Source of the DNA: Emcibacter sp. SYSU 3D8
GTDB lineage: Bacteria > Pseudomonadota > Alphaproteobacteria > SMXS01
DNA length: 64,000 bases
NCBI RefSeq assembly: GCF_039655875.1
Contig: NZ_JBBYXK010000005.1
Coordinates: 1-64,000, forward strand
Direction: 5' to 3'
The notes under the pieces: generated by a model
Databases searched by the model: none
Told to the model about the DNA's origin: nothing
Seen by the model: the letters and a program-made list of their open reading frames with translations, nothing else
Shown here: in pieces, positions 23,432 to 64,000 of the stretch
Numbering within the stretch: position 1 is the stretch's first letter
Layout: every line of letters begins with the position of its first letter
Program-made: the position numbers and the translations under genes

Positions 23432-24217
23432 CTATTCGAGCGGGCCGGCCGGCTGTTCCGGCGGCTCATCCTGCCGCTGGCGCATCGCCACGATCGCGAC
23501 AACCGGCAGCAATCCGGCATAGATCATCGCCAGACCGACATAGGTGGCCCAGAAGGACGAGGCCAGCAAAGCTGCCAGGATCACCGCGCCAACCAGCAGC
23601 GGCAGCACCAGGTGCCGGTTGATGCGAACGTGCTTGGTCGACAGGGTCGGCACCCGGCTGACCATCATCAGGGCCAGAACCGCCAGATAGACCGCGCACA
23701 CTTCCGGTTGCCGGAAATAGTCGGACTCGGTGTGGAATGTCAGCGCGAACGGCACCAGGGCAAGCCCCGCCGCCGCCGGCGCGGGCATGCCCATGAAGTG
23801 GCTGTGAACCGTGCCGTCCTCGGCCGCGCTCTGGTCCATGATGTTGAAACGCGCCAGGCGCAGGGCGCAGCATACGCAATACATCAGCGTCACGGCCCAA
23901 CCGAAACGCGGGACCTCGTGGAGCGTCCAGAAATAGAGGATGATGGCCGGCGCCACGCCGAAACAGATCACGTCGGACAGGGAATCCAGTTCGGCGCCGA
24001 ACTTTGTGGTGCCCTTGATCATCCGCGCCACCCGGCCATCCAGCAAATCGAACAGGCTCGCAAGCAGGATGGCGATCACCGCCGCCTCCCAGCGCTCCTG
24101 GAAGGCGAAGCGGATCGAGCTGACGCCCGAACACAGCGCCAGCACGGTCAGCACCGTGGGCGCCAGCACCCGGATCGGCACGAACGGCGGCAACCGGCGA
24201 TGCAGGGGAGCCTTCAT
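23432..24217 (-). CDS. pssA: CDP-diacylglycerol-serine O-phosphatidyltransferase
   Basis: A 261-residue membrane enzyme that joins CDP-diacylglycerol and L-serine to make phosphatidylserine. The CDP-alcohol phosphatidyltransferase motif is complete: D60-G61, A64-R65, G74, D78 and D82 (DG-x2-AR-x8-G-x3-D-x3-D). About eight helices are visible. The ATG at 24217 is two bases after the psd stop (TGACCATG), so translation is probably coupled. With psd next door this forms the complete phosphatidylserine to phosphatidylethanolamine route. Confidence 0.95.
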   Translation of the reverse strand: MKAPLHRRLPPFVPIRVLAPTVLTVLALCSGVSSIRFAFQERWEAAVIAILLASLFDLLDGRVARMIKGTTKFGAELDSLSDVICFGVAPAIILYFWTLHEVPRFGWAVTLMYCVCCALRLARFNIMDQSAAEDGTVHSHFMGMPAPAAAGLALVPFALTFHTESDYFRQPEVCAVYLAVLALMMVSRVPTLSTKHVRINRHLVLPLLVGAVILAALLASSFWATYVGLAMIYAGLLPVVAIVAMRQRQDEPPEQPAGPLE

Positions 24218-51258: not shown

Positions 51259-53043
51259 ATGCTGACACCATTACCGACGGATGACCCCGGCCTGCCCAGG
51301 CGCATGGCCGACTTTGCCACTTTGCTCGACGCGCTGGATTATGCCGCGCGCGGCATCAGGGGCTTCAATTTCTATTCGGCGCGCGGCGACCTTGTCGATG
51401 TCCTGAGCTTCGCGGAACTGCGCGAACGGGCGTTGATCACGGCCCGGCAGCTGATCACCGCCGGTCTTGAGCGCGGCTGCCGTGTGGCGCTGATCGCCGA
51501 TACGACCCCCGACTTCATCGTCGCGTTCTTTGGCTGCCAGTATGCCGGCCTGCTGCCCGTGCCATTGCCGCTGCCGACATCGTTTGGCGGCAAGGACGGC
51601 TATGTCGAACAGCTGGGCAAGCAGATGACGAGCTGCCACGCCGCCGCCGCCATCGCGCCAACCGGCATGTCGGAGCTGCTGGCTCAGGCCACGGAAGGGC
51701 TCGAGATGGCGTTGGTCATGACCAGCGAGGAATTGGCGACACTGCCCGAGGGCAATCCGGAGCTGCGTCCGCAGGCGCGCAACGATATCTGCTACCTGCA
51801 ATATTCGTCGGGCAGCACCCGCTTCCCGCATGGCGTGGCCGTGACCCAGGCGTCGGTGATGTCCAACTGCCATGGCAACGGCGTGCACGGTATCGAGGTG
51901 CGCGACGGCGACAGGATGATGTCGTGGCTGCCGTTCTACCATGACATGGGCCTGGTGGGCGCCATGCTGACGCTGGTGGCCGTCCAGGTAACCGCCGATT
52001 ATCTGCCTACCGAATTCTTCGCGCGCCGTCCGCTGCTGTGGCTTGAGCTGATCAGCCGCAACAAGGCGACCGTCACTTACAGCCCGACCTTCGGATACGA
52101 ATTGTGCGCCCGCCGGGTCAAACCCGAGCAGGTCGCCGAGCTGGATCTGCGGTCGTGGCGCGTCGCTGGCCTGGGCGCCGAAATGATCCGCGCCGATTCC
52201 ATGCGTGAATTCAGCCGGACATTCGCCCCCGCCGGATTCAACGACAAGGCGTTCCTGTCCAGCTACGGGCTGGCCGAATGCACCCTCGCCGTGAGCTTCA
52301 TGCCGCTCGAGCGCGGCATCGAGGTGGATGTTGTCGACGAAAGCCTGCTTTCGCTCGAGCACCGTGCGGTTGCGCCCACCAGCGACAAGGCGAAGATCCG
52401 GGAGGTCGTGAATTGCGGCATCCCGATGCCGGAATACGACATCGTGATTCGTGACGAAAACGGCGATTCGCTAAGCGATCGCGGCGTTGGTCAGATATAT
52501 GTGCGCGGTCCGTCGGTCATGTCGGGCTATTTCAACGACCCTGAAGGCACCCGCAACGTGCTGGACGAGGCCGGCTGGCTGGATACGGGCGACATGGGCT
52601 ACATGGTCGGCCGGTCGCTCTACATTGTCGGCCGCGCCAAGGACCTGATCATCCTCAATGGCCGCAACCACTGGCCGCAGGATATCGAATGGACCGTCGA
52701 ACAGATCGAAGGCCTGCGTTCGGGCGACAGCGCCGCCATTTCTGTCCCCGGCCGTGACAACGAGGAAGTCGCCATGATCCTGGTACAGCCACGGGTCAGC
52801 GAACTGGAAGAACGGCGCAAGCTGGTCGGCGAGGTCAAGCGCCGCGTCCAGAAGGAAGTGGGCATCGCCTGCCGTGTGGCGATGGTCAAGCCGCGCAGCC
52901 TGCCGCGTACCTCGTCGGGCAAGCTGAGCCGGGTGAAGGCCCGCGCCAACTACATGTCCGGCCTGCTGGAGCCGCTCGAGGGCAGCGATCCCTATCCCTG
53001 GGAAGACGCCGCGCCGCTGAAAGCCGCCGCCGCGGGGGAGTGA
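51259..53043 (+). CDS. aasR: Fatty acyl-AMP ligase / acyl-ACP synthetase of sphingolipid synthesis
   Basis: A 594-residue adenylating enzyme of the FAAL clade. The ATP loop is YSSGSTRFPHGV (182-193), SSYGLAECTLAVSF is the A5 region, YLDTGDMGY-like WLDTGDMGYM follows, and the C-terminal LPRTSSGKLSR holds the catalytic lysine. FAALs activate a fatty acid as acyl-AMP and load it on an acyl carrier protein. It is followed by cerR, acpR and spt, the same set and order (read in reverse) as in Caulobacter, where AasR charges the dedicated carrier AcpR for Spt. Start ATG accepted although no clear ribosome site is seen. Confidence 0.9.
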   Translation: MLTPLPTDDPGLPRRMADFATLLDALDYAARGIRGFNFYSARGDLVDVLSFAELRERALITARQLITAGLERGCRVALIADTTPDFIVAFFGCQYAGLLPVPLPLPTSFGGKDGYVEQLGKQMTSCHAAAAIAPTGMSELLAQATEGLEMALVMTSEELATLPEGNPELRPQARNDICYLQYSSGSTRFPHGVAVTQASVMSNCHGNGVHGIEVRDGDRMMSWLPFYHDMGLVGAMLTLVAVQVTADYLPTEFFARRPLLWLELISRNKATVTYSPTFGYELCARRVKPEQVAELDLRSWRVAGLGAEMIRADSMREFSRTFAPAGFNDKAFLSSYGLAECTLAVSFMPLERGIEVDVVDESLLSLEHRAVAPTSDKAKIREVVNCGIPMPEYDIVIRDENGDSLSDRGVGQIYVRGPSVMSGYFNDPEGTRNVLDEAGWLDTGDMGYMVGRSLYIVGRAKDLIILNGRNHWPQDIEWTVEQIEGLRSGDSAAISVPGRDNEEVAMILVQPRVSELEERRKLVGEVKRRVQKEVGIACRVAMVKPRSLPRTSSGKLSRVKARANYMSGLLEPLEGSDPYPWEDAAPLKAAAAGE

Positions 53044-53047
53044 GCCC

Positions 53048-53980
53048 ATGACCGGCGCCGACAGACACGTCGCGCTGACCGGTGCGACCGGCTTTGTCGG
53101 CACGGCGGTGCTTGAGGAATTGCTGCAGCAGGGTTTCCGGGTCTCCGCGCTGGCGCGCCGCGACCAGCCTGCCCGTGACGGCGTGACATGGATTCCCGGC
53201 GACCTGACCGACGAGACCGCGCTCTCTACGCTGGTTGCCGGCGCTGACGCTGTCATCCATGTAGCCGGGCTGATCAAGGCACGGCGCCGGACCGAGTTCT
53301 TCGATATCAACAAGGGCGGCACCGCGCGCCTGATCGCGGCGCTGGACGGCCGTCCGGCGCGGTTCATTCACCTGTCGTCCCTCGCCGCCCGCGAGCCGGC
53401 CCTGTCCGGCTATGCGGCCAGCAAGGCCGCGGCCGAGGTTCTGGTCCGGTCGGCGCCGGCGCTGGACTGGACTATCCTGCGTCCGCCCGCCGTCTATGGG
53501 CCCGGCGACCGCGAGACACTGGTATTCTTCAAGGCCGCGCGTGAGCGCCGTCCGTTCCTGCCGGGCGGCACGGCGCACCGCACATCCCTCGTCCACGTGG
53601 CAGACCTCGCGGCCGCCCTTGTCGCCGCCATCGACCTGCCGGGCATCTCCGCACGGATCGCCGAGGTCCATGACGGAGAGCCCAAGGGCTATGCCATACG
53701 CGAGGTCCTGGCGATGATCGACGGCCGGCCAGACTTTCACCACCCGATCTTTCTTCCCGGCGGCCTCCTGCAGGTGGTGGGCGGCGCGATCTGGCTCGCC
53801 AGCACCATTTCCGGCACCGTCCCCATGCTGACGCCCGGCAAGGCGCGAGAATTGACCCATGTGGACTGGGTCTGCCGCGACACGGTGCTGGCCGACGCGG
53901 GCTGGCGGGCGGCGATTCCGGCGGCGCGCGGTCTGCCCGAGACCCGCGCCTGGTATGAGGCGCATGGCGACCTTCCCTGA
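53048..53980 (+). CDS. cerR: NAD-dependent epimerase-type reductase, ceramide reductase CerR
   Basis: A 310-residue extended-SDR protein. The nucleotide-binding motif is TGATGFVG (11-18); the catalytic set is S110/S111, Y122 and K126 (YAASK). A hydrophobic segment near 235-255 (FLPGGLLQVVGGAIWLASTISG) may associate with the membrane. In Caulobacter the gene in this position reduces the 3-oxo group of the ceramide precursor after N-acylation. It starts four bases after aasR and is followed by the carrier protein gene, so the pathway assignment is strong by context. Confidence 0.88.
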   Translation: MTGADRHVALTGATGFVGTAVLEELLQQGFRVSALARRDQPARDGVTWIPGDLTDETALSTLVAGADAVIHVAGLIKARRRTEFFDINKGGTARLIAALDGRPARFIHLSSLAAREPALSGYAASKAAAEVLVRSAPALDWTILRPPAVYGPGDRETLVFFKAARERRPFLPGGTAHRTSLVHVADLAAALVAAIDLPGISARIAEVHDGEPKGYAIREVLAMIDGRPDFHHPIFLPGGLLQVVGGAIWLASTISGTVPMLTPGKARELTHVDWVCRDTVLADAGWRAAIPAARGLPETRAWYEAHGDLP

Positions 53981-54056: not shown

Positions 54057-54302
54057 ATGAGCAACGCGCTTGACGAGATCGTTACCCTGATCGCGCCCCT
54101 CAACCGCAAAGGCGTGGCCGTGACGCCGTCAACCACGTTCGCCACCGACCTGGAGTGGGATTCCCTGACCGTGATGGATTTCGTCGCAGAGATGGAAGAC
54201 CACTTCGACATCATCATTCCGCTGAACCTGTTGCCCGATCTGGAAACCGTCGGCCAGGTTGCCGATGCGGTGAACGGGCTGATCGAGAAGAAGAATGGCT
54301 GA
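54057..54302 (+). CDS. acpR: Specialised acyl carrier protein AcpR
   Basis: An 81-residue carrier protein. The phosphopantetheine serine is S36 in EWDSLTVMDFV. Overall acidic, four-helix pattern as expected. Its last codons overlap the spt start by eight bases (AAGAATGGCTGA region), so the two are translated together. It should hold the long-chain acyl group that Spt condenses with serine. Confidence 0.92.
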   Translation: MSNALDEIVTLIAPLNRKGVAVTPSTTFATDLEWDSLTVMDFVAEMEDHFDIIIPLNLLPDLETVGQVADAVNGLIEKKNG

Positions 54303-55500
54303 TCTGTTCGACAAGTTCGACGGCATGATCCGGGCCCGTGAAGCCCTGAATTTCGAACATGCCAGCCCCATCGACGTGGTCATGGAGCAGATCATTTCGC
54401 CCACCGAGGCGGTGATCAAGGGCAAGCGGACGATCCTCGCCGGCACCAACAACTACCTGGGGCTGACCTTCGACCCGCGCTGCATCCAGGCGGCGCACGA
54501 GGCGCTCGATAAAGCCGGTACGGGCACCACCGGATCGCGGGTGCTCAACGGCACCTATTCCGGCCACAAGGCGCTTGAAGCCGCCATCGCCAAGCTCTAC
54601 GGCACCGAGCACTGCATGGTGTTCAGCACCGGCTTCCTTGCCAACATGGCAAGCATCGGCACCCTGGCCGGCAAGGACGACGTCATCGTTATCGACGCCG
54701 ACAGCCATGCCAGCATATACGACGCCTGCAAGATGTCGGACGCCACCATCGTCCGCTTCAAGCACAACGATCCGGACGACCTGGACAAGCGCCTGCGCCG
54801 GCTCGGGACCGGCTCGAATGTGCTGATCGTCGTGGAAGGTCTCTATTCCATGCTGGGCGACAAGGCGCCCATGAAGGAACTGGTCGAGGTCAAGAACCGG
54901 CATGGCGCCGCGCTGATGGTCGACGAGGCCCATTCCATCGGCGTGTTCGGAGAGACCGGCTGCGGCGTGGCGCAGGAAGCCGGCGTCATGCACGACGTGG
55001 AGTTCATGGTCGGCACGTTCAGCAAGAGCGTGGGCACCATCGGCGGCTATTGCGTCTCGAACCATCCCAAGTTCGAGATTCTGCGGCTGGCCGCCCGCCC
55101 CTACATGTTCACCGCGTCGCTGCCACCGTCGGTGGTCGCATCGGCACTGAAGGCGGTTGAAATTCTGGGGTCGGAACCGCAACACCGGGAAAAGCTGTGG
55201 CGCAACGCCCGGCAGCTCCATGAGGGTCTGACGCGCGCCGGATTCAACCTGGGCGCCGCGCCCAGTCCGGTGGTTGCCGTGAAGATCGACGACCGCGACA
55301 TGACGGTCAGGCTGTGGGAGCAACTGCTCAACAACGGCGTCTACGTCAACCTGGCCATGCCGCCGGCAACGCCGCAAGGCCTGAACCTGCTTCGTTGCAG
55401 CCTCAGCGCAGCGCATACCGAGGAGCAGGTGAGCACCATCGTGGATACGTTCGAGCGCCTGGCGCGGTCCAACAGCATCCTGAGCAAGCCTGCCGCCTAG
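54295..55500 (+). CDS. spt: Serine palmitoyltransferase
   Basis: A 401-residue PLP enzyme of the alpha-oxoamine synthase family that condenses serine with an acyl thioester to give 3-oxo-sphinganine. Key residues: H138 (DADSHAS), D210 and H213 (VDEAHS) and the PLP lysine K244 in GTFSKSVG. AONS and KBL are close relatives, but the aasR-cerR-acpR neighbours and the lipid kinase opposite make Spt the best reading. It overlaps acpR and ends convergent with the nucleotidyltransferase-like gene, sharing the CTAG. Confidence 0.94.
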   Translation: MADLFDKFDGMIRAREALNFEHASPIDVVMEQIISPTEAVIKGKRTILAGTNNYLGLTFDPRCIQAAHEALDKAGTGTTGSRVLNGTYSGHKALEAAIAKLYGTEHCMVFSTGFLANMASIGTLAGKDDVIVIDADSHASIYDACKMSDATIVRFKHNDPDDLDKRLRRLGTGSNVLIVVEGLYSMLGDKAPMKELVEVKNRHGAALMVDEAHSIGVFGETGCGVAQEAGVMHDVEFMVGTFSKSVGTIGGYCVSNHPKFEILRLAARPYMFTASLPPSVVASALKAVEILGSEPQHREKLWRNARQLHEGLTRAGFNLGAAPSPVVAVKIDDRDMTVRLWEQLLNNGVYVNLAMPPATPQGLNLLRCSLSAAHTEEQVSTIVDTFERLARSNSILSKPAA

Positions 55501-56453
55501 CGAAAGCCGCCCTTGCGCCGCGCCTTCCGGATCAGCACCAGTCCGCCGATAATCGGATGGCGGCGGTGCCACGGCTTGATCTTGATGTCGACACCGGAAT
55601 GGCGGCGCATTTTCCAGGCCAGGTAATCGAGCCCGCCGGTGAAGGTGAACGCGCCCTTGATCAGCCGCAGCAGGCTGAGCGTCTTGCCCTGCAGCCGCCG
55701 TGTGCGCCACCGGCCGATTTCCTGTCTCGCACGGGAGGCCGGCACGGCGGTGCGCAGGAAGCCGTGTTCGTCAACGCTCACCTCGATGCCGCTTGCCCGC
55801 ATGGCCGGCACCGCCAACTCGCGGTAGCGGTCCGGGTATTCTCGGAAAATCTCCCCGCCCTTGGTGGCGGCGTTTTCCGACCGAAATTCGGCCGCATAGG
55901 TCATCTGGAATACGTGCGACCACAATTCGTCGGGTGTGAACGGCGATGGATGGACCGGAGCCACCGTGGATACCGCGGTAATCACCGCCTGCGCCACCGC
56001 ATCGGCCACAAGACCGCCGGTGCGCGGGTCGCGGACCCAGGCGAGCGCGCAGGGCTGGGCGAATCGGGCCCAGAAGCTGGGATTGAGGCAATCCAGCCGC
56101 ATGGATTCGGCGAAGCCCTCGGTCGACATCAGCGCGTATTTGGTGCGCACCATACGGCCCTCGAACGGCGTTTCGCGGTAGAACACATTCGGTGGCAGGA
56201 CGCGATTGAAGAAGCCCAGCAGCGCGCTGCCATTCGCCTCGGCCAGGTCGTCGGCCAGCACATAGAAATCCAGGATCTTGTCGTCGTCCGCGCCTGACCG
56301 CAGGCAGGACCCGTAGAACAGGATGGCCGCAGCGCCCGGATGCGCAGCCAGAAGATCCCTGCAAGCGGCCTCGGCGGCCGGAAATATCGGTTGGGAAAGT
56401 TCGGCCAGGACCCGGTCTGCAACACGCCGGAAGTCCTCGCCCTCGCTGGTCAT
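55497..56453 (-). CDS. Nucleotidyltransferase-fold protein of the sphingolipid locus
   Basis: A 318-residue protein. Near the start AAAILFYGSCLRSGADDDKILDFYVL resembles the G-S motif and following acidic strand of the nucleotidyltransferase superfamily (G48-S49, then D62-F-Y), although the usual D-x-D is imperfect. The rest is mostly helical with a basic C-terminus (KPWHRRHPIIGGLVLIRKARRKGG). Its ATG overlaps the lipid kinase stop (ATGA). In Caulobacter a comparable gene stands beside spt among those needed for ceramide phosphoglycerate; that recollection supports a head-group role but not the exact reaction. Confidence 0.75.
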   Translation of the reverse strand: MTSEGEDFRRVADRVLAELSQPIFPAAEAACRDLLAAHPGAAAILFYGSCLRSGADDDKILDFYVLADDLAEANGSALLGFFNRVLPPNVFYRETPFEGRMVRTKYALMSTEGFAESMRLDCLNPSFWARFAQPCALAWVRDPRTGGLVADAVAQAVITAVSTVAPVHPSPFTPDELWSHVFQMTYAAEFRSENAATKGGEIFREYPDRYRELAVPAMRASGIEVSVDEHGFLRTAVPASRARQEIGRWRTRRLQGKTLSLLRLIKGAFTFTGGLDYLAWKMRRHSGVDIKIKPWHRRHPIIGGLVLIRKARRKGGFR

Positions 56454-57418
56454 GCGTCTTCCAGCCTGACGAAGGTGAATGGCGGCGTCGCCTCCAGTTT
56501 CACCGGATGGGCCGGATCGGGAACAAAAAACTCACCGTCGAGGGTCACCGGGCTGGGGGTGCGGATTTCGACGCCGTGCATGCGCCGGCGGACCAGGCCG
56601 CGTACCAGCTTGCTCGACGGCCGGCCGAACAGGAACGTCCAGGCCGCACGGGCCGCAGCCGAGACGGTGTATTCGATGCTGGTATAGCGCAAGGCGCCCT
56701 CACCCACCGCCGAAGCCGCCGAAAGGCCCAGAATGAGGCGATTCAGCGTGGTCACCAGCACGATCATATAGGCCTTGGGCTCGGGCGTGCTGTCGCCGAA
56801 ATTGACATGCATGGGCTCGCGCCGCATGGGCGATCGGGCGCTCTTGAAAGGCCATGCCGCCATCGCGAGCAACCAGACAATGGCAAGCGAATGCGCCAGG
56901 AAGTTTGGCATGCCCAGCGGATAGATCACCCGTCGCGTGAACTCGATGCCCCGAACCACCGTCGCCGCACCGAAAAACGCGCCATAGACCGGCGCCGATC
57001 CCGGCGTCACCTGCAGGCGAATGAACGGCAGGGCGACGGTCTTGAGCCGGTCGCCGAGGGCTCCTTCGATCACGTCCCTCAGGCACTCGCTGGGCGTGCC
57101 ATGCATGCCCAGCGCCTCGGCCACCATGTTGGTGCGGCCCCCCGGCAAGATACAGATCACCGGCGGCTCGTCGAAGATGCCATGGTTCATCAGCGCCGTC
57201 ACGCCGAGCTGGAGCGTGCCGTCACCGCCGCTGAGGATGACCAGCCGGACACCTTGCGCGGCAAAGTCGCGCAGGATGTGCTCCATGTCGTCGATACTGG
57301 AGAGTTCGCGGTACGCAACACCCGAAAATCCACCGACCACCTGACGGAAGTCGTGCAACATCTTGTTCATCCGGGTACTGCCCGGATTGCTGACGATGCC
57401 GATTTCTTCGAATGTCAC
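56450..57418 (-). CDS. cpgB: Diacylglycerol-kinase-family lipid kinase, probable ceramide kinase
   Basis: A 322-residue kinase of the DAGK/YegS fold. The nucleotide motif is SGGDGT (63-68) followed by CILPGGRTNMVAEALG. It has the two-domain pattern, with a C-terminal beta domain ending in SPVTLDGEFFVPD. The middle part (GMPNFLAHSLAIVWLLAMAAWPF) is unusually hydrophobic, suggesting membrane contact. In Caulobacter the equivalent CpgB phosphorylates ceramide as the first step to anionic sphingolipids. Operon: DUF2141 gene, 79 bases, this gene, then an ATGA overlap with the nucleotidyltransferase-like gene. The cpgB name is by context. Confidence 0.82.
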   Translation of the reverse strand: MTFEEIGIVSNPGSTRMNKMLHDFRQVVGGFSGVAYRELSSIDDMEHILRDFAAQGVRLVILSGGDGTLQLGVTALMNHGIFDEPPVICILPGGRTNMVAEALGMHGTPSECLRDVIEGALGDRLKTVALPFIRLQVTPGSAPVYGAFFGAATVVRGIEFTRRVIYPLGMPNFLAHSLAIVWLLAMAAWPFKSARSPMRREPMHVNFGDSTPEPKAYMIVLVTTLNRLILGLSAASAVGEGALRYTSIEYTVSAAARAAWTFLFGRPSSKLVRGLVRRRMHGVEIRTPSPVTLDGEFFVPDPAHPVKLEATPPFTFVRLEDA

Positions 57419-57497
57419 CGGAACCTGTCCAAGCGGCTGGAAAGGCGCGAACTTAGGCAGCTATCGGTTCCGGGTCAAATGACAACAGACGGAGGCG

Positions 57498-58073
57498 TCA
57501 GTAGCGGATGTCGATGGTGAGATCGGTGGTCCCGTCACCCGTCGTGAACACCGCGTCCTTGTGCGACGCGGGACCGAACATGCCGGCCTTCGCGTTGTTG
57601 GAAAAACCATAGCCTTCGCTGGCGAAACCGTATTTTCCGTTGGCGTTCTCGTCATGATAGAGGCCCACGGCGTAGATTCCCCGGCCGTTCGGCAACGGCA
57701 TGCAGGCTTCCATGCGGCCCTGGCTTGCCGGAACATCGAACCGGATGAGCTTGCCACCCTTCTTGCCGACCCACTGGTCCGGATCGGGACCGTGCAGACT
57801 GAGCCTGATGTTGCCCTTGGAATTGCGCACATTGGGCAGGATGACCCGGATTCGGGGCGCCTTGTCGGCCGGGTCGCACCAGCCAAGCGGCTTCGAGGGA
57901 TCAATGCGCTCTGCCACGGATTCGAGCGCCTTGCCGGAAAGGGGCAGCCCCCGCAATCGCTCGGGCAGGGCATGCGGCTGATCGTCCTCGGCGTACGCAG
58001 CCCCCGCCGCCAGTGCGGCGCAAGCCGCCAGCATGGCGATGATCCGTTGGTGCGGTCGCGACGTCGAAGCCAA
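57498..58073 (-). CDS. DUF2141 secreted protein of the sphingolipid locus
   Basis: A 191-residue exported protein with a DUF2141 domain, recognised from IRVILPNVRNSKGNIRLSLHG and the strongly conserved YAVGLYHDENANGKYGFASEGYGFSNNA. The start is set at TTG 58073 because AGGAG lies exactly seven bases upstream; it gives a clean signal peptide (MASTSRPHQRIIAMLAACAALAAGAAYA). ATG codons further upstream lack a ribosome site. DUF2141 proteins are periplasmic beta-sandwiches of unknown function. As first gene of the operon with the lipid kinase, it probably acts on the phosphorylated sphingolipid outside the cytosol. Confidence 0.85.
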   Translation of the reverse strand: MASTSRPHQRIIAMLAACAALAAGAAYAEDDQPHALPERLRGLPLSGKALESVAERIDPSKPLGWCDPADKAPRIRVILPNVRNSKGNIRLSLHGPDPDQWVGKKGGKLIRFDVPASQGRMEACMPLPNGRGIYAVGLYHDENANGKYGFASEGYGFSNNAKAGMFGPASHKDAVFTTGDGTTDLTIDIRY

Positions 58074-58285
58074 ACCGTGTCTCCTGTTCTCAAGTATCGT
58101 CATAGCGTGCGCCATCCTATGGCGCGAGGATGAACCTAGGCCGAACGCCCTCGGGCTGGATATGTTCACTGCAGAATTCGTTTGCAATCAACGGGTGGCA
58201 CTCTTTACTTGAACCCGCTGCCGCGTGATCGCATGGCACCGGGTCCACCATATCCATGCGTATCTGCCGAAAGGATTGCCCGACC

Positions 58286-59497
58286 GTGTTCAGGAAGGTC
58301 GACATCTACATCCTGCGCCAGGTGATGACGCCGCTGCTGATGACGGTCGGCGTGTCGGCCATGTTGCTGCTGCTCGAAAAGATGCTGCGCCTGTTCGACC
58401 TGGTGGCCAATCAGGGCGGTCCGGTCGGCGTGGTGTTCAAGATGCTGGGCAACCTGATCCCGCAATATATCGGCCTGGCCCTGCCGCTCGGCTTTCTGCT
58501 GGGCGTATTGCTCGCCTTCCGCAAGCTGACCAACAACAGCGAGCTCGAGGCGTTGCAGGGCGGCGGATTGAGCCTGTTCCGGCTGATGCGCGGCCCCATC
58601 GCCCTGTCCGGCGTGCTGATGATGATCAATCTGGCGCTGCTGGGCTTCATTCAGCCGCGTTCGTTCTACACCTATCAGAGCCTGCTGTTCGACCTTACCT
58701 CGGGCGCATTCGGCACCAGCATCCGGCCGGGCGAGTACAGCTATCTGGGCGATGGATTTACCCTGCGCATCGAAAAGGCTTTTGACGGCGGACAACGCCT
58801 TGATGGTATTTTCGCGCAGAAGGAGCGGCCCGACGGTCACATCACCACGATCACCGCCAAGCAAGGCTCGTTCCTTGCGACACCAGACGGCCGAACGGTC
58901 CTGATGCGCCTGCGGGACGGCGTGATCGTCGACGTCGAACCCCGCAAGCCCGCGCCGCGGGTGTTTACCTTTACCCAGCACGACTATCCATTCGAGATGC
59001 CACAGATCGCCGAATTCCGCGCCCGCGGCAACAAGGAACGCGAGTTGACGCTGAACGAACTTTGGTCGCAGTCGCACACCACCACCGATCAACGCGAGTC
59101 GCGCACCTTCCTGTCGGCATTCTTCGACCGTATCCTGCGCTCGCTGACCATCCTGGTCCTGCCGTTCATGGCGGTGGGACTTGGCGTGGGAGCAAAACGG
59201 CAACAGAAGCAGTTGGGACTGGTCGTCGGCGTCATCATGCTGCTGACCCTGCACAAGACGCTGGAGTTCGGCACCGCAGCCGCGAGCCTCGGTGAGGGCT
59301 CGGGATTGGTCAATCTTTTCGTCCCGTTCGTCGTTTTCATCGGACTGGCCGGATTCTTCTTCTACACGACGGCCTTCCGGGTCGGGGTGAAGCCGTTGGC
59401 CTGGATCGAGAACGGCTGGGATCTGCTGCTCGGCTCGGTACAGAAGATCAGCTTCTTCCGGCGCAAGAAGGACGGCACAGAGGGCCAGCCGGCATGA
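58286..59497 (+). CDS. lptF: LptF-type permease (LptF/LptG family)
   Basis: A 403-residue inner-membrane protein. The start IYILRQVMTPLLMTVGVSAMLLLLEKMLRL is typical of LptF/LptG; there are three N-terminal and three C-terminal helices with a periplasmic beta-jellyroll domain between (about 150-270), and NSELEALQGGGLSLFRLMRG is the cytosolic coupling helix. With LptB2 and LptG it lifts lipopolysaccharide from the membrane. The GTG at 58286 follows AAGGA; an ATG at 58256 would add ten residues. It lies beside sphingolipid genes rather than lptD, so it could serve LPS, sphingolipid or both. Confidence 0.9.
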   Translation: MFRKVDIYILRQVMTPLLMTVGVSAMLLLLEKMLRLFDLVANQGGPVGVVFKMLGNLIPQYIGLALPLGFLLGVLLAFRKLTNNSELEALQGGGLSLFRLMRGPIALSGVLMMINLALLGFIQPRSFYTYQSLLFDLTSGAFGTSIRPGEYSYLGDGFTLRIEKAFDGGQRLDGIFAQKERPDGHITTITAKQGSFLATPDGRTVLMRLRDGVIVDVEPRKPAPRVFTFTQHDYPFEMPQIAEFRARGNKERELTLNELWSQSHTTTDQRESRTFLSAFFDRILRSLTILVLPFMAVGLGVGAKRQQKQLGLVVGVIMLLTLHKTLEFGTAAASLGEGSGLVNLFVPFVVFIGLAGFFFYTTAFRVGVKPLAWIENGWDLLLGSVQKISFFRRKKDGTEGQPA

Positions 59498-60594
59498 CAA
59501 GACTGCAGCAACACCGCCTGTCGATCCCCGTCCTGCTGGAATACATCGCCAAGATGTTTCTGGTGCGGTTTCTGGTGCTGCTGTTCGGCATCGCCTTGAT
59601 CATGCAGGCGCTGGACGTGCTGTCCCAGAGCGGCGACGTGCTCGAGCCCGCCGGCGCCGGCATGGATTCCATCTGGCGATTCACCATTTTGCGGTTTCCG
59701 CAGATGGTATCGAACGTCATCGGCTTCTCGGCGCTGCTGGCCACGCTGATCACCTGCACCACCCTGGCGCAAAGCAGCGAGGTGGCGGTAATGCAGTCGA
59801 GCGGCCTGTCGTCATTCAGAATCATCTTCCCGATGATGGGCGTCTGCGCGGTGGCCGCCGTCTTCCACTTCGCCATGAACGAGACCATCGTCGCCCAGTC
59901 CAATGACGAGTACAACCGCTGGCGCGCCAGCGGATTCGCCATTGGCGACACGACCTTGCCACCCTCCAAGTCCGACGCCTGGGCCATCGAGGGCGACACC
60001 CGGGTGCGGGCGCAGGCGGTGACCCGCGACGGCACCATCCTGGACAAGGTCACCCTCTACAAGCTGGACAACGGCCGGATCAAACAGATCACCTCGGCCA
60101 ACTTCGCGGCCTATTCCAATGGCCAGTGGACCATGTTCGACGTGACCGTCTTCGACGTCGACGAAATGAAGGTGACCTCGACGCCCCGCTTCAACTGGGA
60201 CACCAAGATCCCGCCGGCCCGGTTTCGCGCCCTGTCCATCGATCCCGAGACCGTGCCCATCGGACGCCTGGCGACGGCGGTCGACCAGTTGAAGGGCGAA
60301 GGCATGAGCGTCAACCGGCTGACCGCCTGGCTGCACCACAAGATTTCGGGACCGCTCGGCACCATCCTGATGCCGCTGCTGGGCGCCATGGCCGCCTTCG
60401 GCGCACAGCGCTCGGGCACCATGTTCTTGCGGGTGATCGGCGGCATGGCATTCGGCTTCAGCTATTTCGTGGTCGACAATCTGCTGCTGGCCGTGGGTCA
60501 GTTCGGCACGATTCCGCCGGTCCTCGCGGCCTGGACGCCGCTGTTCCTGTTCTTCTTCCTGGGAACGTCCGTGCTGTTCTACACGGAGGCATAG
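59494..60594 (+). CDS. lptG: LptG-type permease (LptF/LptG family)
   Basis: A 366-residue inner-membrane protein, partner of the preceding LptF. The ATG overlaps the lptF stop (ATGA). It has the family layout: helices at about 16-40, 55-80 and 95-120, jellyroll (about 140-260), then three helices (GTILMPLLGAMAAFGA onward). SSEVAVMQSSGLSSFRII is the coupling helix. The two proteins should form one transporter with the ATPase LptB, which is not in the window. A flippase gene follows seven bases later. Confidence 0.92.
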   Translation: MTRLQQHRLSIPVLLEYIAKMFLVRFLVLLFGIALIMQALDVLSQSGDVLEPAGAGMDSIWRFTILRFPQMVSNVIGFSALLATLITCTTLAQSSEVAVMQSSGLSSFRIIFPMMGVCAVAAVFHFAMNETIVAQSNDEYNRWRASGFAIGDTTLPPSKSDAWAIEGDTRVRAQAVTRDGTILDKVTLYKLDNGRIKQITSANFAAYSNGQWTMFDVTVFDVDEMKVTSTPRFNWDTKIPPARFRALSIDPETVPIGRLATAVDQLKGEGMSVNRLTAWLHHKISGPLGTILMPLLGAMAAFGAQRSGTMFLRVIGGMAFGFSYFVVDNLLLAVGQFGTIPPVLAAWTPLFLFFFLGTSVLFYTEA

Positions 60595-60601
60595 CGCTTC
60601 C

Positions 60602-62173
60602 ATGTCCACGCCGCCGCCCGGCCCCTCCACAAAGGCAGTGATGGCGCGCGGCGCCGGTCTTGCCCTGCTGGGACGCAGCGGTGCGCTGATCGAACTGGTG
60701 AGCTTCTTCCTGTTCACCCAGATGTACGGCGCGCAGACCTTCGGCCTGTTCATGACCATGTGGGGCCTGGTGCAGGGCCTCGCCATCGTCTCCGACTTCG
60801 GCATGACCATGGCGCTACAGCGCTTCATTCCCGGCGCCGAGAACGAAGTGGCGGCCGGCCGGGTGCTCAAATACGCCGTCAACACCACGCTGGGGATCTC
60901 GTGCCTGATCGGGCTGGGCATGTTCCTCGCCGCGCCCGCGCTTGCCGGCGTGATCAATGCCAACGAGCAGGACGCGGCCCACCTGGTCACCATCATCCGC
61001 ATCTATTCGCTGGCTGTGCCGCTGTGGTCGATGATCGAGGTCGCCACCGGCGCCATCCGGGCCCGCAGCATCTTCGGTCCCGAGGTGAAGGTTCGGATTT
61101 TCTACGAGCAGGGCTTCCGGCTGATTTTCGGCGTGCTGCTCTGGACACTGGGCATGCTGTCGCTGGGCCTGTTCGTCTCGCACCTGATCGGCCTCGCGGT
61201 CACCGCCGCCTTCGCCTTCCGGCTTGTCCACAAGCATTACGGCCTGGGCCACCTTGTCGCCCGGACCGGCCTGGGCCGGGCGCTGGGCAAGGAGATGGTG
61301 GCCTATTCATCGAGCATGATGCTGCCCAACTTCGCCAAGAAGTGGCATTCGTGGCTGCCGGTGATCTTCCTGAACATCATGCTGCCCGGCGCGCGCGGCG
61401 CCGAAGCGGCCGGCGTCTATGCCGCGGCGCGCAAGCTGGTCAGCGTGCTCAATGTCTTCCGCGAGAGCTTCGAATACGTCCTCGCGCCGCTGGCGTCGGC
61501 CAACAGCGGCCAGGCCGACCGGGGCAAGCTGCGCGAGATGCTGGCCTTCGCCACCCGCGTCTCGGTGCCCGCCTTCATCCCGATGGCGACGCTGGTGATC
61601 TGCTACCGGCACGAATTGCTGCGCCAGAGCGGATCGGAATTTGTCGCTGGCGCCGGCGCGCTGCTGATACTGGTCGTCGGCCGGAGCCTGGAAGTCACCT
61701 GGGGCCCCTCGACGTCGATCCTCGCCATGATCGGCAGGTACCGTATCCCGTTCCTCAATGCCCTGGCGGGTGTGGCCGCCACCGCGCTGCTCGCATTCTG
61801 GCTGATCCCGCGGCCGGAATTTTTTGGCGGCGGCCTGCGCGGCAGCATGATCGCGGCGGCCATCGCCGCGGCGGGCGGCATCAACGTCTCGGCGGTGCTG
61901 GGCTTCCTGCAGGTGCGCTACATTTACGGCCTCAAGCCATATGACCGGCGCCTGTTCCGGCCTGTCGCCGTATCGGCCGGCATCTCGCTCGCCATGGCGC
62001 TGCTGTTCGACCTGACCGAGGGCATGTGGCGCACCGGCTATTTCATCCTGGGTCTGGTGACCCTGATCGTCGCCATGCTGACGCTGATGCGCTTCGGTTT
62101 CACCCGCGAGGACGCCCAACTCGTGGTGCCGAAAAAGCTCGCCAAGCGGCTGCCCTTCCTGGTGCGCAGGTAA
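60602..62173 (+). CDS. MOP-superfamily lipid/oligosaccharide flippase (Wzx/MurJ-like)
   Basis: A 523-residue membrane protein with 12-14 helices. It shows the polysaccharide-transporter pattern: GLALLGRSGALIELVSFFLFTQMYG at the start, SDFGMTMALQRFIP at helix 2-3, and a central cytosolic loop with Arg/Lys. It starts seven bases after lptG, so it is co-transcribed. Such proteins flip lipid-linked sugars across the inner membrane. In this setting a glycosylated or phosphorylated sphingolipid, or an LPS/O-antigen precursor, is a reasonable cargo; sequence alone does not decide. Confidence 0.85.
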   Translation: MSTPPPGPSTKAVMARGAGLALLGRSGALIELVSFFLFTQMYGAQTFGLFMTMWGLVQGLAIVSDFGMTMALQRFIPGAENEVAAGRVLKYAVNTTLGISCLIGLGMFLAAPALAGVINANEQDAAHLVTIIRIYSLAVPLWSMIEVATGAIRARSIFGPEVKVRIFYEQGFRLIFGVLLWTLGMLSLGLFVSHLIGLAVTAAFAFRLVHKHYGLGHLVARTGLGRALGKEMVAYSSSMMLPNFAKKWHSWLPVIFLNIMLPGARGAEAAGVYAAARKLVSVLNVFRESFEYVLAPLASANSGQADRGKLREMLAFATRVSVPAFIPMATLVICYRHELLRQSGSEFVAGAGALLILVVGRSLEVTWGPSTSILAMIGRYRIPFLNALAGVAATALLAFWLIPRPEFFGGGLRGSMIAAAIAAAGGINVSAVLGFLQVRYIYGLKPYDRRLFRPVAVSAGISLAMALLFDLTEGMWRTGYFILGLVTLIVAMLTLMRFGFTREDAQLVVPKKLAKRLPFLVRR

Positions 62174-62276: not shown

Positions 62277-63041
62277 GTGATCCTCAAGCTCGGTTTCTGG
62301 AGTCGGCGGCGCCATCACCTCGACAAGATGACGCTGGGAGAGCTGGTGAAGGCCTATTTCCAGTATTACGCCATCCAGGCCTACATCGTGGTCGCCATCG
62401 TCGGCTACGCCTACTCGCTGACGTCCGGCGCGCCGCTGCGCGGGCTCGCGCTGACGGGACTGGCCGCGGTGCTGCTCTATCCGCTTGCCTGGTACGGCAT
62501 CCACCGGTTCATCCTGCATGGCAACTGGCTGGCCAAGTCGCCGCTGACCGCGTCGGTGTGGAAACGCATTCATTACGATCACCACCAGGACCCGCACGAC
62601 CTGCACATCCTATTCGGCGCGCTTTACACCACGCTGCCGACGGTTGCCGCCGTCACCATGCCGGTGGGCTACTATTTCGCGGGCTGGCCGGGCGCGGCGT
62701 TCGGCCTGGCGACCGGCTGCGCGATCACCTGCTTCTACGAGTTCTGCCACTGCATCGAACATCTGTCCTACAAGCCGAAGAATCCGATCCTGATCCGGAT
62801 GAAGCAGCTGCACATGGCGCACCATTTCCACAACGAACAGGGCAATTTCGGCATCACAAACTTCCTGTGGGACCGGGTATTCGCCACGCTCTACACCAAC
62901 GAACGGCGGCCGCCCAAGAGCGCCACCGTATTCAACCTGGGCTATGACGACGCCATGGCCGCGCGCTATCCGTGGGTGGCCGAGCTTTCCGGTGGTGTCG
63001 CAAAGGGCACACCCCGCGACCGCCGACGCGACGCGGCCTGA
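62277..63041 (+). CDS. Fatty acid hydroxylase/sterol desaturase superfamily protein
   Basis: A 254-residue integral membrane di-iron enzyme, starting at GTG. It has hydrophobic helices near 33-75 and 120-155 and the four histidine boxes of the family: H76-x4-H81 (HRFILH), H99-x2-HH (HYDHH), H158-x3-H162 (HCIEH) and H179-x2-HH (HMAHH). Members hydroxylate fatty acids, sphingoid bases, ceramides or sterols using O2. It is placed five bases before the ceramide-synthase-like gene, so a hydroxy-ceramide or hydroxy-acyl product is the simplest hypothesis. The ATG at 62328 is a possible shorter start. Confidence 0.87.
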   Translation: MILKLGFWSRRRHHLDKMTLGELVKAYFQYYAIQAYIVVAIVGYAYSLTSGAPLRGLALTGLAAVLLYPLAWYGIHRFILHGNWLAKSPLTASVWKRIHYDHHQDPHDLHILFGALYTTLPTVAAVTMPVGYYFAGWPGAAFGLATGCAITCFYEFCHCIEHLSYKPKNPILIRMKQLHMAHHFHNEQGNFGITNFLWDRVFATLYTNERRPPKSATVFNLGYDDAMAARYPWVAELSGGVAKGTPRDRRRDAA

Positions 63042-63046
63042 TCTCC

Positions 63047-64000
63047 ATGAGCTTTGGCGAGGGCGGCGTTCAGGTCGCCGAGGTCACCACGAAGGCTGAC
63101 CTCGAAGCTTTCATCGACGTTCCCTGGACCATCTACCGGGGCGATCCCTATTGGGTGCCGCCGTTGCGGTTCGAACGGCGCGACATGCTGAACCGGGACA
63201 AGAACCCCTACTTCCAGCACGCCGAGGCCGCCTATTTCATCGCCCGCATGGACGGCCGGCCTGTGGGACGCATCAGCGCCCAGGTGGATCAGCTTGCCCA
63301 GACCCACCAGGGTCCGGGCACCGGCCATTTCGGTTTCCTGGAAGCCGTCGACGACCCGCTGGTATTCGACGCCCTGTTCGAGGCCGCCGAGACCTGGCTG
63401 CGCGAGCGCGGCATGACCCGGATCATCGGTCCGTTCTGCCCGTCGATCAACGAGGAGTCCGGCCTGCTGGTCGAAGGCTTCGATGAGCCGCCGCGGGTGA
63501 TGATGGGCCATGCGCGGCCGTATTACGGCGAACACGTGGAAGAGTTGGGATACGCCAAGATCCAGGACCTGTGGGCCTACGACCTGAACATCACCCACGA
63601 ATTCCCGGCCAGCGTTCAGCGCATCCTGGCCAAGGCCCGCAAGCAGGAGAAGCTGAAGCTTCGCCGGATACGCAAGAAGGACTTCGACAGCGAGTTGAAG
63701 ATCATCATCGATATCTTCAACGACGCCTGGCAGGACAATTGGGGCTTCATCCCCATGACCGAAGCCGAGATCGAGAAGATGGGCAAGGACCTGAAGCCGT
63801 TCATCAAGGAACAGGGCTGCATGATCGCCGAATGGGACGGCGTGCCCACGGCCTTCATGCTGACCGTGCCCGACATCAACCAGGCCGCCGCCGACCTCGA
63901 CGGCAACATGCTGCCGTTCGGCTGGGCAAAGCTGGCCTGGCGCCTGCTGGTGAAATCGCCGACCCGCTGCCGGGTGCCGCTGATGGGCGTGCGCCAGCAA
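63047..64000 (+). CDS. GNAT-fold protein, probable bacterial ceramide synthase (3' end missing)
   Basis: The first 318 residues of a plus-strand gene cut by the window end. The sequence has YRGDPYWVPPLRFERRDML near residue 30, PYFQHAEAAYFIARMDGRPVGRISAQ, and IIGPFCPSINEESGLLVEGFDEPP (about residue 135-160). This is the YghO-like N-acyltransferase pattern described for the bacterial ceramide synthase bCerS of Caulobacter. That enzyme transfers an acyl group from acyl-CoA to the amino group of 3-oxo-sphinganine. The hydroxylase gene ends five bases upstream. With spt, acpR, aasR and cerR in the window, all five known ceramide genes would be present. Confidence 0.8.
   Translation, partial: MSFGEGGVQVAEVTTKADLEAFIDVPWTIYRGDPYWVPPLRFERRDMLNRDKNPYFQHAEAAYFIARMDGRPVGRISAQVDQLAQTHQGPGTGHFGFLEAVDDPLVFDALFEAAETWLRERGMTRIIGPFCPSINEESGLLVEGFDEPPRVMMGHARPYYGEHVEELGYAKIQDLWAYDLNITHEFPASVQRILAKARKQEKLKLRRIRKKDFDSELKIIIDIFNDAWQDNWGFIPMTEAEIEKMGKDLKPFIKEQGCMIAEWDGVPTAFMLTVPDINQAAADLDGNMLPFGWAKLAWRLLVKSPTRCRVPLMGVRQQ

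Follow-up and report, generated by a model that had tools for sequence, protein, structure and literature searches.

The window analysed here is a stretch of 64,000 nucleotides from Emcibacter sp. SYSU 3D8 (contig NZ_JBBYXK010000005.1, positions 1 to 64,000, forward strand). It carries three minus-strand genes that converge on a serine palmitoyltransferase gene (spt). The original prediction had read the three as one head-group operon and matched them to the Caulobacter genes for ceramide phosphoglycerate (CPG). The four genes are:

55497..56453, minus strand: putative cpgC orthologue (identity to the Caulobacter-type locus L178) of 318 amino acids (aa), Tam41-like nucleotidyltransferase by its AlphaFold (AF2) model and by Foldseek and VIA comparison, predicted cytidine triphosphate (CTP):ceramide-1-phosphate cytidylyltransferase

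56450..57418, minus strand: putative cpgB orthologue, predicted ceramide kinase of 322 aa with a GTG start (DAGK_cat, PF00781, E 2.7e-14; GGDG motif)

57498..58103, minus strand: DUF2141 protein, start uncertain (PF09912, 61.2 bits against a cut-off of 24.4, E 1.1e-16)

54295..55500, plus strand: spt, convergent with the three (NF047599, 627 bits against an equivalog cut-off of 500)

The three minus-strand open reading frames (ORFs) are present as predicted, at 55497-56453 and 56450-57418 and with the DUF2141 ORF ending at 57498. On the minus strand, the bases ATGA at 56450-56453 overlap the kinase stop with the cpgC start, and at 55497-55500 a CTAG palindrome makes the stop codons of the convergent spt and cpgC genes overlap tail to tail by four bases. 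A same-strand gap of 79 bp separates the kinase start from the DUF2141 stop. For the start of the DUF2141 gene there are several candidates, the originally predicted position 58073 being an in-frame TTG and in-frame ATGs lying at 58103 and 58115.

For the comparison with Caulobacter, a Caulobacter-type family was picked by an MreB nearly identical to PDB 4cze (97% at best); a profile of 84 CpgC members matched 92 of its 390 genomes, and 15 loci were fetched. Of the eight cpgD primers given in PMC12275187, locus L178 (genome G655) has five exactly and two with two mismatches, and one was not found at up to three mismatches; in locus L180 four are exact and the others have at most two mismatches. 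The order of genes in L178 (CpgD, CofC-like, CerS, LptG, LptF, HIT, phosphoesterase, CpgA, kinase, CpgC, Spt, acyl carrier protein (ACP), CerR, AasR) fits CC_1152 to CC_1165 as given in PMC11324152, and its CpgD starts MQPVKTL and carries G12, R16 and K26 as published (PMC12275187). From the primers and the gene order we infer that L178 belongs to C. crescentus or a very near relative. The 318-aa protein of the window shares 37% identity (170 bits) with the protein in the cpgC place of L178, and the window kinase 26% (64 bits, tblastn) with the protein in the cpgB place, which adjoins cpgC. CpgC is single copy on both sides, with one match in the window's own genome and one in G655, and the 318-aa gene is placed between spt and the ceramide kinase, as in relatives and in L178. 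Judged from sequence and position, the kinase gene and the 318-aa gene are orthologues of cpgB and cpgC, Cpg genes with published mutants. The proposed match to Caulobacter Cpg proteins thus holds for two of the three genes and fails for DUF2141, which has no match in L178 and is linked to lptF and lptG. With the C. crescentus pair (CC_1160-CC_1161, CCNA_01218-01219) the window shares the two genes, their order, the convergent spt, the homologous proteins and the surrounding ceramide genes, whereas its genome has no detected cpgA or cpgD orthologue and DUF2141 precedes the kinase. In Caulobacter, CpgB makes ceramide-1-phosphate (PMC10331486), and CPG requires CC_1160 and CC_1161, with CC_1159 required only for CPG2 (PMC11324152).

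The 318-aa protein has no Pfam match up to E 0.1 and none by sequence in NCBIfam or PDB. At least 571 relatives were confirmed in a scan of the GTDB genome collection. The locus counts come from the best 80, taken together with their flanks, and so lean towards near kin. Among these best 80 loci, the kinase was found in 74 and lies directly upstream of cpgC on the same strand in 73, with -20 to +30 bp from the kinase stop to the cpgC start in 63 of 72 measured pairs. The spt gene was found in 50 and is convergent downstream of cpgC in 47 of these. This arrangement of kinase, cpgC and spt across loci is more than chance. Record titles among the loci listed include Desulfobacterota and Nitrospirota. 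One record (L032) is titled Candidatus Kuenenia stuttgartiensis, yet its contig and coordinates agree with a genome of the window's own genus (G167), and the title looks wrong.

In a sample of 385 genomes of the class, the family occurs in 43, one of them weak (G003, 8.3e-4) and left out of the cpgC count, which leaves 42 strong genomes. A search with NF047603 found spt in 41 of the 42 strong-cpgC genomes against seven of the 343 others (Fisher p 9e-47, which is only a guide because the sampled genomes are related). The same search also matched the E. coli control and is therefore not fully specific; at 1e-120, spt was found in only 48 of the 385 genomes. The sole strong-cpgC genome without a match to spt (G334) has an spt-like stretch of 35% identity adjoining cpgC, and the seven spt genomes that lack cpgC have an ACP match next to spt. 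Three loci of one genus (L135, L136 and L137, in G066, G280 and G358) hold ceramide genes and a metallophosphoesterase in a single run with no kinase or CpgC match there, so their sphingolipid head group should differ.

The AF2 model of the 318-aa protein, built from 30 homologues, reached a predicted local distance difference test (pLDDT) score of 92.2 and a predicted template modelling (pTM) score of 0.89. In a Foldseek search of PDB the top four chains were all Tam41 (6ig4_A, E 4.7e-8), followed by the next family at 2.2e-4. With VIA, the bacterial Tam41 7ecd (a CTP-Mg complex) aligned at Z 19.4 over 229 residues (root-mean-square deviation 3.0, 13% identity) and SpTam41 (6ig4_A) at Z 16.5, with the next family, ANT(4')-IIb, at Z 8.2; in both Tam41 alignments the nucleotidyltransferase domain and the second domain are arranged as in Tam41. 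At the sequence level, PF09139 (Tam41_Mmp37) matches 24 of the 84 family members at E<=0.1 (best 2.7e-9), and it matches all ten members picked from Desulfobacterota-, Nitrospirales- and similar-titled loci at E<=0.0025, of which five pass the 24-bit cut-off. Fifteen residues are invariant in all 84 CpgC members, among them D62, K105, R130, E189 and R191. Seven of the fifteen fall in a weak (E 0.011) alignment with SpTam41, and K105, R130 and R191 are identical there. D62 is the sole invariant acid in the nucleotidyltransferase motif of the CpgC family. Of the three acidic residues that belong to its fold, Tam41 likewise retains a single one, and it binds CTP through basic residues (PMC11646218), which accounts for the 'degenerate metal motif' that had been noticed in the 318-aa protein. 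By its model, then, the protein has the Tam41 fold and would work like Tam41 without being filed as a member of the Pfam family. It resembles the mitochondrial CDP-diacylglycerol (CDP-DAG) synthase Tam41/TAMM41 (CTP:phosphatidate cytidylyltransferase), bacterial Tam41 (7ecd) included, in its fold, in three common residues and in its reduced acidic metal set, and differs in lying below Pfam detection and in its expected substrate, ceramide-1-phosphate instead of phosphatidic acid. An assignment of the 318-aa protein as CpgD was ruled out, CpgD being a COG1213 protein whose relatives are separate genes within the same clusters. CpgD, a CTP:phosphoglycerate cytidylyltransferase, shares with the predicted CpgC enzyme the lipid pathway and the CTP-dependent nucleotidyltransferase activity, and differs by its COG1213 domain (PMC12275187).

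Ceramide-1-phosphate stands to ceramide as phosphatidic acid stands to diacylglycerol, and a Tam41-like enzyme coupled to a ceramide kinase would most simply make CDP-ceramide. In the proposed mechanism, the CpgB kinase would phosphorylate ceramide with ATP to ceramide-1-phosphate, and CpgC would transfer CMP from CTP onto it, so that CDP-ceramide forms and pyrophosphate is released; Tam41 carries out the equivalent reaction on phosphatidic acid. The CMP would then be exchanged for the head-group alcohol (glycerate in Caulobacter) by a CDP-alcohol phosphotransferase or some other enzyme. With a probability of roughly 0.6, the window genes are the cpgB-cpgC unit of a bacterial phosphosphingolipid pathway that works via CDP-ceramide. 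The cpgB-cpgC pair was already known, and nucleotide activation of ceramide by CC_1161 was suggested in 2024 from an InterPro CDP-DAG synthase hit (PMC11324152). What is added here is the Tam41 fold, which together with the family and linkage evidence supports that suggestion and a CDP-ceramide route. The term CDP-ceramide was not found in the literature searched, which omits most subscription papers, nor was any paper since 2021 joining Tam41, Caulobacter and sphingolipid.

The same fold could also belong to a second CDP-DAG synthase acting on phosphatidic acid, with only an indirect link to sphingolipids, given that Tam41 and bacterial Tam41 make CDP-DAG (PMC7018664, PMC11646218). However, the own genome already has a CdsA-family gene (PF01148, 5.0e-55), so that CpgC is not needed for CDP-DAG. 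Moreover, cpgC is coupled to a ceramide-kinase homologue and co-occurs with spt, and loss of CC_1161 abolishes CPG (PMC11324152). We regard a role in CDP-DAG synthesis as very improbable.

Several results weigh against CpgC as a Tam41-like CDP-ceramide synthase. Of the seven invariant residues covered by the SpTam41 alignment, four are different in that protein. PF09139 and Pfam as a whole give no Tam41 match for the window protein or for the CpgC of L178, and PF09139 is silent in the own genome and in the Caulobacter vibrioides control; of 14 controls only Methanocaldococcus matched. Searches of PDB by sequence with the window protein and with the 30- and 84-member profiles returned no Tam41 (the two profiles gave one weak nucleotidyltransferase, 9xbd, at E 0.13 and 0.03), and only two single Desulfobacterota-titled members approach Tam41 in PDB, at E 0.011 and 0.026. 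Ceramide reduction has been placed in the periplasm (PMC11087976), which would make an awkward substrate source for a cytoplasmic CTP-dependent enzyme. Finally, there is no obvious CDP-ceramide user among the cluster genes, and a PF01066 search of the own genome found no enzymes other than PgsA and PssA, so the step after CDP-ceramide is missing. The second of these two enzymes lies in the window:

23435..24163, minus strand: PssA, one of only two PF01066 CDP-alcohol phosphotransferases found in the genome (TIGR00473, 118.9 bits against a cut-off of 107)

The original prediction had called the chemistry after ceramide phosphorylation open; the Tam41 fold and the earlier suggestion of nucleotide activation leave it less open than stated there. 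No separate user of CDP-ceramide would be needed if CpgC were a direct transferase joining glycerate or phosphoglycerate to ceramide-1-phosphate. The linked core of kinase and CpgC would suit such an enzyme, as would the lack of a CpgA-like gene in the flanks of 42 of the 68 loci having more than 4 kb upstream and the failure to find an extra PF01066 enzyme in the own genome. On the other hand, a known cytidylyltransferase has this fold, and no CpgD was found, which makes CDP-glycerate an unlikely donor. Direct transfer is unlikely on this evidence, and the formation of CDP-ceramide by CpgC remains our preferred reading.

The search for the further Caulobacter head-group enzymes relied on protein searches of a 17-contig assembly rated 100% complete. 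For the CpgA-type protein, which is of the CDP-alcohol phosphotransferase type, the own genome gave no match at E<=0.001, and for CpgD its matches were partial and confined to the N terminus (best 5.9e-9, query residues 19-95 of 260). Both proteins act in the synthesis of CPG2, where they are required for the second phosphoglycerate; with neither found, the head group is expected to consist of a single unit. A CpgA-type protein at E<=1e-60 occurs in four (L048, L054, L079 and L092) of 19 genomes with the DUF2141 type of cluster, a set that includes the own genome and that of L034, whose flank has no DUF2141, and in nine of 11 genomes picked from other cluster types. According to these searches, kinase and CpgC are a core that often occurs without CpgA. 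A similar case is Zymomonas mobilis, which lacks CC_1159 and for which the authors predict CPG but not CPG2 (PMC11324152); its 14 orthologues are spread over 10 regions in that account, whereas the window genome has one compact cluster. More broadly, it is fairly probable that bacteria run a sphingolipid CDP-lipid pathway parallel to the phospholipid one, with CpgC making CDP-ceramide. A tentative and rather doubtful extension is that genomes in which CpgA was not found, the own genome among them, use a housekeeping PssA or PgsA to convert this CDP-ceramide and so form a phosphatidyl-like ceramide phosphate head group.

Some observations on related enzymes were made alongside. In the CpgA-type proteins at L091:7662-8867 and L178:7407-8510, some 170 to 180 residues precede the CDP-alcohol transferase domain, and the L178 protein matches a bifunctional inositol-phosphate cytidylyltransferase/transferase model far below its cut-off. 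The own genome also carries two MobA-like NTP transferases related to the CofC-like CC_1153 (L142:7747-8667 on contig C9 and L143:5560-6474 on C1), and an ORF overlapping the first of them has a sulfotransferase match below threshold (E 0.0019). These two were dropped as candidate head-group enzymes because the 14-16 kb around each held no matches to the sphingolipid genes tested and because a Caulobacter CC_1153 mutant still makes CPG (PMC11324152).

The remaining genes of the cluster lie on the plus strand, on either side of the four already listed:

51259..53043, plus strand: AasR-like fatty acyl-AMP ligase (NF006624, 821 bits against a cut-off of 600)

53048..53980, plus strand: CerR-like short-chain dehydrogenase/reductase or epimerase (PF01370, 5.4e-28; the CerR position in Caulobacter-type loci)

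54057..54302, plus strand: ACP, AcpR-like, 81 aa (ORF; relatives have an ACP in the same place before spt)

58256..59497, plus strand: LptF homologue, divergent from DUF2141 (PF03739, 1.3e-59)

59494..60594, plus strand: LptG homologue (PF03739, 1e-64)

60602..62173, plus strand: putative lipid flippase (PF01943, 1.8e-12)

62277..63041, plus strand: fatty acid hydroxylase family protein (PF04116, 5.6e-20)

63047..64000, plus strand: ceramide synthase (bCerS) homologue, extending beyond the window end, start picked by eye (1.7e-29 with a 120-aa query)

Past the window end, a 910-aa ORF (L144:4305-7037) directly follows the ceramide synthase, and its middle is long, repetitive and helix-rich-looking.

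The DUF2141 protein has an N terminus that looks like a signal peptide by eye, and two cysteines are invariant in all 39 aligned DUF2141 sequences. Structure prediction had been proposed as a check for this protein as well as for the 318-aa one; it yielded the Tam41 fold for the latter, and for DUF2141 a mostly beta model (pLDDT 85.1) without a clear relative. There was no Foldseek match at E<=0.001, the best VIA Z was 7.3, and no enzyme-like relative stands out. The structure lists contain pilotins, fimbrial proteins, dioxygenases, transthyretin and fibronectin-like domains; we read this mixture as no more than a common beta-sandwich.

That all three genes form one head-group synthesis operon, as the original prediction had it, finds some backing in the position of DUF2141, which is on the same strand 79 bp from the kinase start here; among the 28 surveyed loci with DUF2141, its distance to the kinase is below 300 bp in 22. 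Outside the survey, one locus (L122:8131-9505), in a genome whose sphingolipid genes are scattered, has DUF2141 beside cpgC and the kinase, with no lptF/lptG or spt match in 18 kb. However, lptF or lptG lies within 800 bp of DUF2141 in all 28 surveyed loci, including the six that have it at a distance from the kinase or gave no kinase match. The model offers no enzyme-like relative, and the C. crescentus-type cluster of L178 has no DUF2141 match, its lptF neighbour being a HIT-domain protein. A three-gene head-group operon is on balance quite improbable. DUF2141 is divergent from lptF in every surveyed locus but L109, and it lies between lptF and a phosphoesterase gene, 535 to 653 bp from lptF, in nine of 15 Caulobacteraceae-type loci; L122, and L138, where DUF2141 adjoins spt, speak against a strict link to the Lpt genes. 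Judged from its neighbourhood, DUF2141 probably acts in the periplasm as an accessory of the second LptF/LptG system in sphingolipid export, outside the head-group chemistry. Equating DUF2141 with the product of CC_1157, both being beside lptF2, was ruled out by the HIT-domain protein encoded at that place in L178. PF09912 does match somewhere in the Caulobacter vibrioides control genome. Nor is the family specific to sphingolipids, since members are also found next to carotenoid genes in Sphingomonadales (PMC5989583).

The anionic sphingolipids of Caulobacter support survival without lipopolysaccharide and confer polymyxin B sensitivity (PMC12275187, PMC11324152), and the step from ceramide-1-phosphate to CPG was described in 2025 as 'a yet unidentified mechanism' (PMC12275187). 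If our reading is true, a Tam41-like CDP-ceramide synthase would provide a concrete and assayable reaction for this step, and CDP-ceramide would join the activated lipids. Together, the kinase and CpgC would then be a two-gene core by which probable makers of anionic sphingolipids could be sought among Alphaproteobacteria and, going by record titles, Desulfobacterota and Nitrospirota.

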